Assembly: GCA_018433245.1 (NCBI GenBank)
Contig: JAHDRN010000025.1
Span: forward strand, 1-51,508
Length of the DNA stretch: 51,508 nt
Reading direction: 5' to 3'
Origin: Candidatus Proruminimicrobium quisquiliarum
GTDB lineage: Bacteria > Elusimicrobiota > Endomicrobiia > Endomicrobiales > Endomicrobiaceae
Shown: positions 1 through 26,712 of the stretch, piece after piece
Layout of the letters: every line of letters begins with the position of its first letter
Numbering within the stretch: position 1 is the stretch's first letter
The notes under the pieces: generated by a model
Databases searched by the model: none
What the model saw: the letters and a program-made list of their open reading frames with translations, nothing else
Told to the model about the DNA's origin: nothing
Translations under genes and position numbers: made by a program

Positions 1-1082
1 GAAATCGCCGACGCTTTTGTTAAAAAAAATTTGCTACGGTCGCTTCCCGCAAGGGAAGCGTGGATTGAAATCTTTCAACATACTAGCATCATGTAAATTG
101 CTTGATAGTCGCTTCCCGCAAGGGAAGCGTGGATTGAAATTGCATCTGCAATTATGCAGTCTATATCTGATTTGCGTCGCTTCCCGCAAGGGAAGCGTGG
201 ATTGAAATAACGAAAATTAGCCAGACCATAGAAGCCATTGAGAGTCGCTTCCCGCAAGGGAAGCGTGGATTGAAATTCTTTGTGGACTATTTTGTTTTAT
301 TTTTAGTTTAGTCGCTTCCCGCAAGGGAAGCGTGGATTGAAATGAAAAAGATATATTTTTAATAAAAGAAAATTTAAGTCGCTTCCCGCAAGGGAAGCGT
401 GGATTGAAATATTCCATATCAGAGCATACATCCTGAACGGGATAGTCGCTTCCCGCAAGGGAAGCGTGGATTGAAATATTTTGCCTCCGTACAAATTTCT
501 TTTGTAAACCGGTCGCTTCCCGCAAGGGAAGCGTGGATTGAAATACGAGATAGCCCACGTTTTAAATCCAAGACAAAAAGTCGCTTCCCGCAAGGGAAGC
601 GTGGATTGAAATATCAATCGGCTCTCCGTTGTTTCCTAGTCTCTCAGTCGCTTCCCGCAAGGGAAGCGTGGATTGAAATGCTAGGTCTGATACTGCTGAT
701 ACTACGGGATAACGTCGCTTCCCGCAAGGGAAGCGTGGATTGAAATAACAGGAACTTTCACAGGAATTGACACGAGTTTTGTCGCTTCCCGCAAGGGAAG
801 CGTGGATTGAAATTGTTGAAGTTATTTATGAGAATACAACTATATTTGTCGCTTCCCGCAAGGGAAGCGTGGATTGAAATTAAAACATACAAGGAAGAGA
901 TTATATTTAACTGGGTCGCTTCCCGCAAGGGAAGCGTGGATTGAAATAAAAATTAATCCGCAAAACAATAAAACAATTAAAGTCGCTTCCCGCAAGGGAA
1001 GCGTGGATTGAAATTTTATATGTTTTAGAACTTCTATGTTTTTTATAAAGTCGCTTCCCGCAAGGGAAGCGTGGATTGAAAT
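1..1082 (+). CRISPR. Type I-C-like CRISPR array, continues past left edge
   Basis: Sixteen complete, essentially identical 33-bp repeats start at 39, 108, 176, 244, 311, 378, 445, 512, 580, 647, 714, 781, 848, 915, 982 and 1050. The first five bases (GAAAT) are the tail of one more repeat, so the array extends leftwards. Spacers are 33-36 bp. The repeat begins GTCGCTTCCC and ends GTGGATTGAAAT. CGCTTCCC and GGGAAGCG form an 8-bp stem capped by GCAA, a GNRA tetraloop. The ATTGAAA(T/C) 3' end and the hairpin are typical of type I-C (Cas5d-processed) repeats, which sets transcription on the + strand. Every repeat is intact up to the last, at 1050-1082, so there is no decayed trailer end. No cas genes are in the window; leader and cas genes would be expected left of base 1. 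Confidence 0.97.
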
Positions 1083-1102
1083 AATGTATCAATTTTTTAC
1101 AA
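1083..1102 (+). other. 20-bp junction between the I-C and V-A arrays
   Basis: These AT-rich bases are all that separates an intact type I-C repeat (ends 1082) from an intact type V-A repeat (starts 1103). The stretch is shorter than any spacer of either array (33-36 and 25-27 bp). It could be a spacer remnant left by a deletion or recombination that removed the I-C trailer and the V-A leader. This is inference; the lengths are directly seen. Confidence 0.8.
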
Positions 1103-1550
1103 GTCTAACAGATATATTTAATTTCTACTATTGTAGATTCGTGGATAGACAGATTTAAACAGTGTCTAACAGATATATTTAATTTCTACTATTGTAGATA
1201 CATAAACGTTATGCATAGTCGGAAGTCTAACAGATATATTTAATTTCTACTATTGTAGATGTACAATATCCTTACAGTAAAATAAAGTCTAACAGATATA
1301 TTTAATTTCTACTATTGTAGATTTTTAAACTCTCGCTGAATTGCAACCGTCTAACAGATATATTTAATTTCTACTATTGTAGATCTTAATCCTGTTGCTA
1401 ATCCTATTCGTCTAACAGATATATTTAATTTCTACTATTGTAGATTTGTATTTGTTTTTTGATACAGATTGTCTAACAGATATATTTAATTTCTACTATT
1501 GTAGATACTTTTTTATTTGATAATTTCAAAAATGTCTAACAGCTGTAGAT
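1103..1550 (+). CRISPR. Type V-A (Cas12a) CRISPR array with a degenerate last repeat
   Basis: Seven identical 36-bp repeats start at 1103, 1164, 1225, 1287, 1349, 1410 and 1471. Spacers are 25-27 bp. Each repeat starts GTCTAACAG and ends AATTTCTACTATTGTAGAT, the characteristic Cas12a crRNA handle (TCTAC/GTAGA stem, TATT loop), which sets transcription on the + strand. An eighth repeat, at 1534-1550, is internally deleted to GTCTAACAG-C-TGTAGAT and has lost the 5' arm of the crRNA stem, so it marks the trailer end. The first repeat begins only 20 bp after the last type I-C repeat, leaving no room for a normal leader. No cas12a, cas1, cas2 or cas4 gene is in the window. Confidence 0.96.
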
Positions 1551-1615
1551 ATACAAAAAAATTGCAAGAAATCTAAAAACATAAAAAAGGTTTATTGACT
1601 TTTGACGAAACTAAA

Positions 1616-1683
1616 GCTGGAGAATTGTCCGGAGTAGGCAGTCTAAAAGACCTCTCCATCTCCATTCTGGACAACTCTTCAGC
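1616..1683 (+). ncRNA. Long imperfect hairpin, possible structured RNA
   Basis: The left arm at 1616-1633 and the right arm at 1666-1683 pair over 18 positions with one mismatch. Two of the pairs are G-U on the + strand and would be C-A mismatches on the - strand, so the + strand is the better RNA. An inner GTCT/AGAC stem sits near 1641-1651. The element lies 65 bp beyond the degenerate Cas12a repeat, in a tract with no convincing gene. No promoter is obvious directly upstream. I do not recognise the family; a decayed mobile element end is an alternative. Confidence 0.4.
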
Positions 1684-1754
1684 CAATAGTAATATAATCG
1701 AATTAAAACAAAAAATCAATAGCAAAAATAAAACATATGAATTTTTCATAAATA

Positions 1755-1789: not shown

Positions 1790-1999
1790 AGACTTATCTC
1801 CCTTGAGCAATTGGAGCTTTTGTGGTCGGATAAGTTTAAATATTTTGTGTGAGATATTTTGCATGTAGATGCGAGGAAGCGATTGTAGCTTACCCGTCTA
1901 TATTGCAGACTAGACTGTCCAACGAGTGCGTTATTGCCTTTTGGCAATACTTGGCTGAGCTGGAAAAAATACGGTGCCAGCGCGTTGGCAGTTTTTTTT
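1790..1999 (+). ncRNA. Putative small RNA of about 210 nt, family unknown
   Basis: The tract lies between a promoter-like sequence and a terminator with a run of eight T. It contains many short inverted repeats: ACTTATC/GATAAGT around 1791-1836, GCAT/ATGC at 1861-1872, AAGC/GCTT near 1877-1891, GTCTA/TAGAC near 1896-1915, and a perfect ATTGCC-TTTT-GGCAAT hairpin at 1933-1948. GCTGG (1958-1962) can pair with CCAGC (1977-1981) in competition with the terminator stem, which resembles an attenuator. I see no match to tmRNA, RNase P RNA, SRP RNA or the known 6S sequence. No gene follows on the + strand, so a free small RNA is more likely than a riboswitch. Nothing ties it firmly to the CRISPR arrays beyond position. 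Confidence 0.35.
1975..1999 (+). terminator. Intrinsic terminator, + strand
   Basis: TGCCA (1975-1979) pairs with TGGCA (1986-1990) around a GCGCGT loop and is followed by G and eight T (1992-1999). This is a classic rho-independent terminator for a transcript from the left. Confidence 0.7.
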
Positions 2000-2061
2000 G
2001 TTTATCGTAATATAAAATAACAATACTTGATATTTTTTAATCTTTTGGCTACACTGACAGT

Positions 2062-23084: not shown

Positions 23085-23944
23085 AAAAAATAATAAGTTT
23101 GTTCTTGGTTATTTGTTTGTCTGCAAATATTGCGTTTGCTTTTGATCCGTATGCCGGAACTGAAGAAGAGGCAGATAAAAAATCTCCGATTCAGCTTATC
23201 TACGGAATAGTTTTAACTTTAACGGGAGCTTTTCTGACTTATGACGGTTTTTCAAAAGTTGAATATGATACTTCAAAACCGTCGGTTGATTATATGACTG
23301 TTATACATGCAGAGTGGACTTCAAGCGATAAAGATTCACAAGACAAATATGTCTATACATTGACATCGGGACACGGACTTCCGACCAATCCTGCCGATCC
23401 TCCCATAGAATCAAATATTATTTATAACAGCGGTAATGTTGATTTGACAAACGTCAAAGTAGAAGTCAGATACTTTCATGTAAATCAGGATCCGATAGTA
23501 GTATGGCCAACAGCACCTCGCGAAGGTGATGAAACTACGGATATGTACGGCTATCGTATAGTTGATACAATTAGTCTTGCAAAAGGAGAATCAGTTACTT
23601 GGGAAGATACATTTGCATATTATGCAGCGGGCAGTGAAGTTCCGGGCGGTGTTCCAAGAGTGATAGATGAGACCATAGGCCTTTATCTGGGTGAAGCAAC
23701 TTCGATAATAATGGAAGTCAGATTAGATTTATCAAATAGTTATACAAAAATATATGAAAAAAGAAATAAAAGTGATTTAGAAGGTGTAGCCGGAATTGTT
23801 ATAGCAGGTGCAGGAATATATTTTCTAGCTGATTATTTTATAGGGCTTAAGAAATTTGACAGATATATGAAACAAAATCAGATGAACATAATGCTTGCAA
23901 GTTGCCCAAGCGAATATAAATTACTGTTTCAAAAGAGAATATGA
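23081..23944 (+). CDS. Exported/membrane protein with C-terminal helix, function unknown
   Basis: This 287-residue protein starts at TTG 23081 after GAGGAA, overlapping the receiver gene by 4 bp. It has a signal peptide (residues 1-20), a hydrophobic segment near 31-47, a beta-rich middle of about 170 residues (IIYNSGNVDLTNVKVEVRYFH resembles FxLYD-type domains), and a second hydrophobic segment near 237-255. A short basic tail follows. The two membrane segments bracket an outside domain. I do not recognise the family. It overlaps the GH81 gene by 4 bp, so it is probably made with it. Confidence 0.75.
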   Translation: MKKIISLFLVICLSANIAFAFDPYAGTEEEADKKSPIQLIYGIVLTLTGAFLTYDGFSKVEYDTSKPSVDYMTVIHAEWTSSDKDSQDKYVYTLTSGHGLPTNPADPPIESNIIYNSGNVDLTNVKVEVRYFHVNQDPIVVWPTAPREGDETTDMYGYRIVDTISLAKGESVTWEDTFAYYAAGSEVPGGVPRVIDETIGLYLGEATSIIMEVRLDLSNSYTKIYEKRNKSDLEGVAGIVIAGAGIYFLADYFIGLKKFDRYMKQNQMNIMLASCPSEYKLLFQKRI

Positions 23945-26712
23945 AAAAGATAGTAACAGTCTGTTTTCTGCTGTTTCTTTATACTTTTTGCTTTTCGGTT
24001 CCCGACCCTGGAGGAAATGCATCAATAAAACAGGATTTGTCCGGCACAGGCGTAGCAACGCCGGTTATTTCAAGAACCCCTTCTTTTTCAAAACCTTATC
24101 CGACAAACAAATGGTACAATTCTTTAATTTATAATGATTCTTCAAAGCCGTCATTGGGAATGTATACTCAGCCGCAGCTTCATGTTGTATCTTACCAGAC
24201 TGTTGCACAACAAAGATATACGGGTAGCCTTTTAATAGGTTATCCTATATTAACCGCATACAGCGGAGGAGGCTGTTTTACTTACGGCAGTGATTTGGCC
24301 GATCCCACAAGGTCTCAGCTTTGCATAACCGCGACTGATGCGTCTAACAATCCTAAAACAATAAATACAAGCGACGTAAAATTAAAATCTTTTTCCGATT
24401 GGGCTTGTACTATGGATAACGGTCAGTATGAAGCAACTTTCGGACAGGGAATGCTTTTTTCTTATTTTAATTTCAAAAACGGTTCAAACGCAATGATTTC
24501 TTTTCCGAATGCAATTGATGCAAATAATTCTTTTAAAGTTTATACGTCTTCTTCAGTTCAGGTAACAACAACAGATCCTTTTTATGCTGATAAATTAATA
24601 CTTGAAGTTAAATCTTATTATACCGGCAATTCATCATCAAGTACCAGATATTACGGAATATTTCTTCCGCCAGGTTCTCAGATAAAACTGAATGCATATT
24701 CTTCGTCCGTTCCGGCTAATTCAACACAATTTATAAATATAACGTTTCCTTCTTCGGCAAGATATATGTCCGTCGGGCTTATGACTTCAAAAGAAGACTT
24801 AAACGAATGGTATAAATATGCGTACAATTTTGTTACAGACACAAAAGCTTCGTATGATATAGACAGCAGATACAAAGTAACGACGAATTTTCAATTTATT
24901 TTTGACGTAAAAAGAGCTGATGCAGGACTTATTGAAAGCCAGACTCTTTTTGCAGTTATGCCTCATCAGTATAAAAATAACGAGCTTTCTCTGAATTATT
25001 TTAACGCCAAAGAATTTTCTTCAATAAGAGGAAGAATGAAAGCAGTCAGCGGAAATAAATTTTCCACAAAATACGGATTTTACGGCATAGTTCCGTTTTT
25101 AAACCATACTATATCTTCTTCGGTAAAAACACTGATAACAAATGCTCTTGCAACTGATAAAAATGCGAATATAGATCCGGCCGGGTATCAGGCGGACAAT
25201 ACATATTATTACGGTAAAAATTTGGCGAAAATCGCTAATCTTATAACAGTTGCCGATAATGCCGGAGACGCATCGGCAAAGAATTTGTTGATATCAAGAT
25301 TGAGAGCAGAACTTGCAAACTGGTTTACTTATTCAAGCGCCGAGACAAAAAAGTTTTTTGCTTATGATTCAAACTGGGGCGGACTGATAGGAATTAAAAC
25401 CGGATTCGGGACTGAAAAATACAGTGATCATCATTTTCATTACGGATATTTTATTTATGCATCCGCGATTCTTGCGATGTATGACGATGATTTTGCAAAC
25501 CGTTACGGCGGAATGGTTGAACTTCTTATAAAAGATATAGCAAATATTTCCCGTACAGACACGAATTTTCCGTATATGAGAAATTTTGATGTTTATGAAG
25601 GACACAGCTGGGCGGATGGAATGGGCGGTTCGGAAATTTCATCTTATTCTGATTCAATTAATGAAGAATCTTCATCAGAAGCAATGAATGCATGGGCCGC
25701 CATATATTTATGGGGTATGGCTACAAATAAAACTTCATATTCAAATTATTCAAACAGTGAAAATAATATAAAACTCGGAATATGGCTGTATACGAATAAT
25801 TATAATTCGATAAGAGACTACTATTTGGACGTTGATTCCGGAGACAGTGAAAAAGAAATATATCCTTCATCACTTTTAAGTACTTACGGCAACCACGGGT
25901 CAGTAGGAGTTTTGTTCGGAGGAAGAGCGTGGTATTGGGTATGGTGGACCCCGACCCACGGAGCAAGAGAAATAAAAGGCATTCAAATTTTTCCTCTGAC
26001 TCCGTCAATGTTGTATTTGGGGTATGATAAAGATTATGCACAAAATAATTTTTATGCAAAAATGCTTTCAGAAGCTCCGGGAGATTATTACTGGAACGAC
26101 GTTTGGGAAAAATATCACGCGTTGTTTGACCCGGATGCGGCATGGAATAACTTTGTTGCAAATCCGGTTGTTGACGACGGCGGAACAAGAAGTTTTACAT
26201 ATCATTTTATAAATTATTTTAAACAATACGGTGTGCAGGCTGCGGGATATAGTGCTGATTTTCCGTCTTATCTTGTTACGGAAGATTCTTTCGGCAAAAA
26301 AAATTATATGGTGTACAATCCTTTGCCTGTAAATAAAACGGTAAGATTTTACGACGGTAGCGACGCTTATATGGGAAGCGTTAACGTCAACGCCGGAACT
26401 TGCCTGATAACGTCAAATTTAATAACCGATGAAACGCCCGATAATATTTTGGTTTATCCGGTTCCGTATAAACCGGGAAGCGGTGGCAGTTATGACGCAG
26501 ACGGCATAACATTTCAGAATATAGGCGCAAACGCAAAAATAAAAATATTTAATATCGCCGGAGAACTTGTTTTTGAGACTGTTCAGAATTATTTTTTTGT
26601 CTGGGACGCAAAAAACAGATGCGGCAATAAAATCGCTTCCGGCGTATATATATATTACGTAACTTCAAACGGCGGAAAAACATTTAAAGGAAAAATTGCT
26701 GTTGAAAGATAA
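23941..26712 (+). CDS. Secreted GH81 endo-beta-1,3-glucanase with C-terminal sorting-like domain
   Basis: This 923-residue protein has a signal peptide (1-20). The N-terminal part has PYPTNKWYNSLIY, typical of GH81. The catalytic (alpha/alpha)6 part has YSDHHFHYGYFIYA (Asp496), FPYMRNFDVYEGHSWADGM and NEESSSEAMNAW (Glu576 and Glu580), matching GH81 acid/base regions. The enzyme would cut beta-1,3-glucan such as laminarin, callose or fungal wall. The last about 90 residues (VYPVPYKPG... IKIFNIAGELVFET... WDAKNRCGNKIASGVYIYYV) form a FlgD-like/type A sorting-like beta domain that often directs surface or extracellular placement. It overlaps the previous gene by 4 bp. Confidence 0.9.
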   Translation: MKKIVTVCFLLFLYTFCFSVPDPGGNASIKQDLSGTGVATPVISRTPSFSKPYPTNKWYNSLIYNDSSKPSLGMYTQPQLHVVSYQTVAQQRYTGSLLIGYPILTAYSGGGCFTYGSDLADPTRSQLCITATDASNNPKTINTSDVKLKSFSDWACTMDNGQYEATFGQGMLFSYFNFKNGSNAMISFPNAIDANNSFKVYTSSSVQVTTTDPFYADKLILEVKSYYTGNSSSSTRYYGIFLPPGSQIKLNAYSSSVPANSTQFINITFPSSARYMSVGLMTSKEDLNEWYKYAYNFVTDTKASYDIDSRYKVTTNFQFIFDVKRADAGLIESQTLFAVMPHQYKNNELSLNYFNAKEFSSIRGRMKAVSGNKFSTKYGFYGIVPFLNHTISSSVKTLITNALATDKNANIDPAGYQADNTYYYGKNLAKIANLITVADNAGDASAKNLLISRLRAELANWFTYSSAETKKFFAYDSNWGGLIGIKTGFGTEKYSDHHFHYGYFIYASAILAMYDDDFANRYGGMVELLIKDIANISRTDTNFPYMRNFDVYEGHSWADGMGGSEISSYSDSINEESSSEAMNAWAAIYLWGMATNKTSYSNYSNSENNIKLGIWLYTNNYNSIRDYYLDVDSGDSEKEIYPSSLLSTYGNHGSVGVLFGGRAWYWVWWTPTHGAREIKGIQIFPLTPSMLYLGYDKDYAQNNFYAKMLSEAPGDYYWNDVWEKYHALFDPDAAWNNFVANPVVDDGGTRSFTYHFINYFKQYGVQAAGYSADFPSYLVTEDSFGKKNYMVYNPLPVNKTVRFYDGSDAYMGSVNVNAGTCLITSNLITDETPDNILVYPVPYKPGSGGSYDADGITFQNIGANAKIKIFNIAGELVFETVQNYFFVWDAKNRCGNKIASGVYIYYVTSNGGKTFKGKIAVER

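Follow-up and report, generated by a model that had tools for sequence, protein, structure and literature searches.

A type I-C CRISPR array is joined head to tail, across only 20 bp, to a type V-A array that lacks a leader. We consider it likely that a recent rearrangement placed this leaderless V-A fragment in the same orientation behind the last repeat of a living I-C array and ahead of the 3' flank of that array, so that the V-A part is now an orphan. The join lies near the left end of the window, the whole analyzed stretch of 51,508 nucleotides, which corresponds to contig C27 of a 1.94-Mb bin with 35 contigs from an uncultured bacterium. The features of this region are collected in Table 1. 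Two relatives were central to their interpretation: G024, a member of the same family with a complete V-A locus, and G011, a member of another genus with the same I-C locus.

At the join, an intact I-C repeat (GTCGCTTCCCGCAAGGGAAGCGTGGATTGAAAT) and the first V-A repeat (GTCTAACAGATATATTTAATTTCTACTATTGTAGAT, 1103-1138) follow each other on the same strand. This apposition at 1050-1138 of the plus strand had been described in the initial annotation together with a decay of the V-A array at its right end; both were seen again, the eighth V-A repeat being reduced to 17 nt. Searching for the end of an I-C repeat, 16-46 nt and a V-A hairpin resulted in one match in the window and none in 100 shuffled sequences. 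The junction itself was compared with the V-A leader, the I-C leader, the G011 trailer and I-C spacers, using the I-C array cut before the junction. None of these sources was accepted, as the best match consisted of 12 low-complexity bases (0.05). It bears no likeness to the V-A leader of G024, and no plasmid match was found for it.

Table 1. Features at the joined arrays and in their right flank (window positions).
Feature	Position	Strand	Description
I-C array, leader-distal part	1-1082	+	16 perfect 33-nt repeats; 112-bp overlap with contig C3
Last I-C repeat	1050-1082	+	33/33 to the family consensus
20-bp junction (AATGTATCAATTTTTTACAA)	1083-1102	+	Chance-level likeness only to the V-A leader of G024 and the trailer of G011
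V-A array, leaderless	1103-1506	+	Seven identical 36-nt repeats; 35/36 to the cas12a-linked array of G024
Decayed leader-distal V-A repeat (GTCTAACAG...TGTAGAT)	1534-1550	+	17 nt left; about 20 nt lost inside
3' gene fragment	1569-1721	+	Homology to the C-terminus of a G034 protein
Hairpin/terminator-like element	1915-2006	+	91% over 92 bp to the 3' flank of the G011 I-C array

The remainder of the I-C array is located on contig C3 (5,043 bp), which also carries the leader, cas2 and an I-C type cas1 that runs off the contig end, so that only its C-terminal part is present. Joined across the two contigs, the array comprises 74 repeats, 73 of them perfect, and 73 spacers, of which 71 are different; the V-A array marks its end. 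Cas1 is best matched by TIGR03640 (I-C) and Cas2 by TIGR01573; both are encoded beside the leader, and the I-C repeat thus lies next to an I-C Cas1-Cas2 pair and a leader, as defines the type. The initial annotation had pointed to the sequence left of base 1 as the place to look for cas3-cas5-cas8c-cas7 and cas12a. The partial cas1, cas2 and the leader are indeed found there on C3, but neither the operon nor cas12a was detected in the bin. A query with the G011 operon matched cas1-cas2 only, leaving cas3-cas5-cas8c-cas7-cas4 absent from the bin, and C3 ends within cas1. This contrasts with the 96% identity between the cas1-cas2 pairs of the bin and G011, and at least one contig must be missing.

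Judged by its sequence, the I-C part is most likely a normal, acquiring array. Not a single I-C spacer is common to the window genome and G011 despite 96% identical cas genes, which fits ongoing acquisition. Because nearly all I-C repeats are perfect, the perfect last repeat alone is no mark of truncation; in G011, the last I-C repeat contains a mismatch. Two spacers occur in duplicate (counted from the leader, 7 = 9 and 12 = 42; C3/L024). Two stem positions distinguish the I-C repeats of the window genome (G000, L024) from those of G011 (L043/L044), CCCGCAAGGGAAGC versus CCCGTAAGGGGAGC, despite cas1-cas2 genes of 96% identity. Spacer queries against 90 genomes (the own genome and relatives), from which a few low-complexity I-C spacers were excluded, recovered the arrays themselves and otherwise only weak matches above E 6e-4; in the own genome, no match was found outside the arrays.

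The V-A array consists of seven intact repeats with spacers of 25-27 nt and corresponds to type V-A in its 36-nt repeat, the UCUAC...GUAGA hairpin and the spacer length (25-28 nt in this type). Its complete counterpart in G024 comprises cas12a, a Cas12a3-like gene, cas4, cas1, cas2 (assigned by position and length only), a 118-bp leader and an array of 19 repeats; most of these show a single mismatch to the window repeat. Repeat, spacer length and orientation are thus alike in both, whereas the leader and all of the genes are present in G024 and neither was found in the window genome. Since the G024 repeats have the same sense relative to the direction from cas2 to the array, the left, fused end of the window array corresponds to the leader end, in line with the earlier assignment. 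The lack of space for a leader was likewise borne out, with just 20 bp ahead of the first repeat. Single V-A-like matches in G017, where the match is isolated, and G074 were taken as chance. The second large nuclease gene of G024 (C26, L045:4068-7379) lies immediately behind cas12a and has Cas12a3 as its best solved relatives (E 9e-95 to PDB 21we and 1.7e-86 to 9hlx). As the locus has one array, both nucleases may share its crRNAs.

The effector of this system is likely absent from the organism, as far as the assembled sequence allows a judgement. Cas12a (TIGR04330) was not found in the host bin by a search that matched G024 and G012, and it was found in only two of 100 relatives. A Cas12a3-like protein was not found in the bin either (a search without positive control), and the V-A Cas1 query recovered the I-C Cas1 only. 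Consequently, the bin shows neither the Cas12a effector nor, given this Cas1 result and the 20 bp before the first repeat, the V-A Cas1-Cas2-Cas4 set with its leader. The bin has a completeness score of 100% and is incomplete near the I-C locus; with cas3-cas5-cas8c-cas7-cas4 missing, cas12a could sit on the same missing contig. Without a V-A leader and with no V-A cas1 in the bin, normal V-A acquisition should be lost, as the initial annotation had anticipated.

A comparison with G011 places the V-A fragment within an otherwise familiar locus. There, cas1-cas2 are 96% identical over 903 bp, cas8c, cas7 and cas4 were identified, and leader and repeat are similar. About 290 bp beyond its I-C array, G011 carries the element found at 1915-2006 in the window, so that relative to G011 the V-A fragment separates the I-C array from its 3' flank. 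In contrast to the window, G011 has no V-A repeats and its mismatched last I-C repeat runs directly into the flank. The comparison with related genomes that had been suggested therefore yielded an I-C locus without V-A repeats, but no unfused ancestor holding both arrays. The shared element (L043:10069-10159 in G011) has a perfect core of about 50 nt across two genera, ends in a terminator-like stem with a T run, folds better than shuffled sequences (z -3.3) and has no Rfam match. Since the nearest host gene in the window shares only 77% identity with its G011 counterpart and the same-genus genome G001 gave a single weak match to the array-and-flank query, the I-C block probably moved horizontally.

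Several rearrangements took place at the 3' flank, as read from its alignments. The gene fragment encodes about 50 C-terminal residues with an in-frame stop upstream, its 5' part is gone on the V-A side, and it is homologous to the C-terminus of an uncharacterised protein of G034 (L046:5422-5760; score of 109 in the protein alignment). At 1794-1895, pieces of sequence have the opposite orientation to that in G011. Farther to the right (23941-26712), the window encodes a protein that combines a glycosyl hydrolase family 81 domain with a CHU_C domain (type IX secretion signal).

Could the join be an artefact? A chimera of arrays from two genomes might be suspected in a metagenome-like bin of 35 contigs, the more so as a contig break falls inside the I-C array. 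However, the 112 identical bp shared by C3 and the window start exceed the length of either repeat and the two repeats have no long common word, which makes a repeat-driven assembly error unlikely. The junction is unique sequence. At 1915-2006, the right flank corresponds to that of the I-C array in G011, which argues that array and flank are parts of one locus, interrupted by the V-A insert. We therefore regard a chimera as extremely improbable. A working composite array, in which one transcript starts at the I-C leader and Cas5d processes its I-C part while Cas12a encoded on a missing contig or a plasmid processes its V-A part, is a more serious alternative, albeit an unlikely one. It would account for the seven identical V-A repeats, and it agrees with the demonstrable lack of the neighbouring I-C genes in the bin and with a predicted terminator at 1972-1990 and none between the arrays. 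It is opposed by a bin scored as 100% complete in which no Cas12a, Cas12a3-like protein or V-A Cas1 was found, and by the detection of Cas12a in only 2 of 100 relatives. The dual processing of one transcript by Cas5d and Cas12a, as initially envisaged, finds no support, as no Cas12a was found in the bin by the search with G024 and G012 as positive controls. That the locus represents a natural two-type array with one leader and one precursor RNA, served by Cas5d and a Cas12a encoded elsewhere and placing class 1 and class 2 under one promoter, appears to us decidedly improbable.

Transcription signals bear on a further reading, in which spacer-plus-repeat promoters express the V-A array independently of the I-C leader. 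The V-A repeat carries TATATT, and one promoter-like match (10/12) was found at 1459-1486, within the V-A array. A single match means little, though, as the region contains 11 compared with 6.4 ± 2.8 in shuffled sequences, and such expression would be pointless without Cas12a; we hold this reading to be very doubtful. Nevertheless, the suggestion that the array is transcribed solely by read-through was not borne out, due to this weak match. No terminator-like site is predicted between the two arrays, the first one on the plus strand lying inside the element common to G011. With no terminator predicted until 1990, the I-C precursor RNA would end in the V-A part, and co-transcription by read-through from the I-C leader is probable on the basis of these predictions.

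Returning to the favoured reading, a DNA rearrangement would have placed the leaderless V-A fragment directly after the last I-C repeat. The I-C part would work as usual, using the leader on C3 and the adjoining Cas1-Cas2 and taking up new spacers at its far (left) end. The V-A part would be an orphan, gaining no spacers and most likely lacking an effector in the cell. Read-through would add it to the I-C precursor as a 3' tail, which would presumably be left unprocessed without Cas12a and have no function. The V-A repeats show no change over 7 x 36 = 252 sites, which suggests that the orphan state is young (upper bound near 1% divergence). Seven unmutated repeats are also expected under selection on a working array, and this counts against a relic. 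On balance, the V-A piece is probably a recently stranded relic and not a new two-enzyme system. The route of the join may have been a deletion, an insertion or a recombination; a simple deletion between tandem loci does not by itself explain the I-C flank (1915-2006) beyond the V-A array.

The fusion is real and rare, and its V-A part probably non-functional. A pattern scan of 84,980 genomes (a repeat ending in GATTGAAAY, 16-46 nt and a V-A hairpin), which may omit records near this genome, yielded no second I-C/V-A fusion. All 13 matches were false, with the V-A repeat end GTAGAT and a spacer start TGAAAY mimicking the end of an I-C repeat. Viral contigs contained neither the fusion nor copies of the V-A repeat, and no viral match was found to four V-A spacers (exact 20-21-mers). 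Exact-phrase searches in the open literature did not turn up any description of fused or composite arrays.

The locus offers a snapshot of how arrays of different CRISPR types get spliced together and suggests that an unrelated active array can take over the transcription of an orphan one. It is also a natural experiment on whether read-through by itself keeps spacers of a foreign type usable if the effector returns. For the Endomicrobiaceae (Elusimicrobiota), published work describes II-C and I-C systems in 15 genomes and does not mention V-A (PMC11257099). Orphan CRISPR arrays without cas genes are known in substantial numbers (PMC12814883), and the V-A array is probably one of them, as no V-A effector or Cas1 was found in the bin, which misses at least one contig. 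Unlike these, it is not isolated but lies in sense, 20 bp behind the last repeat of an apparently active array that belongs to another type.
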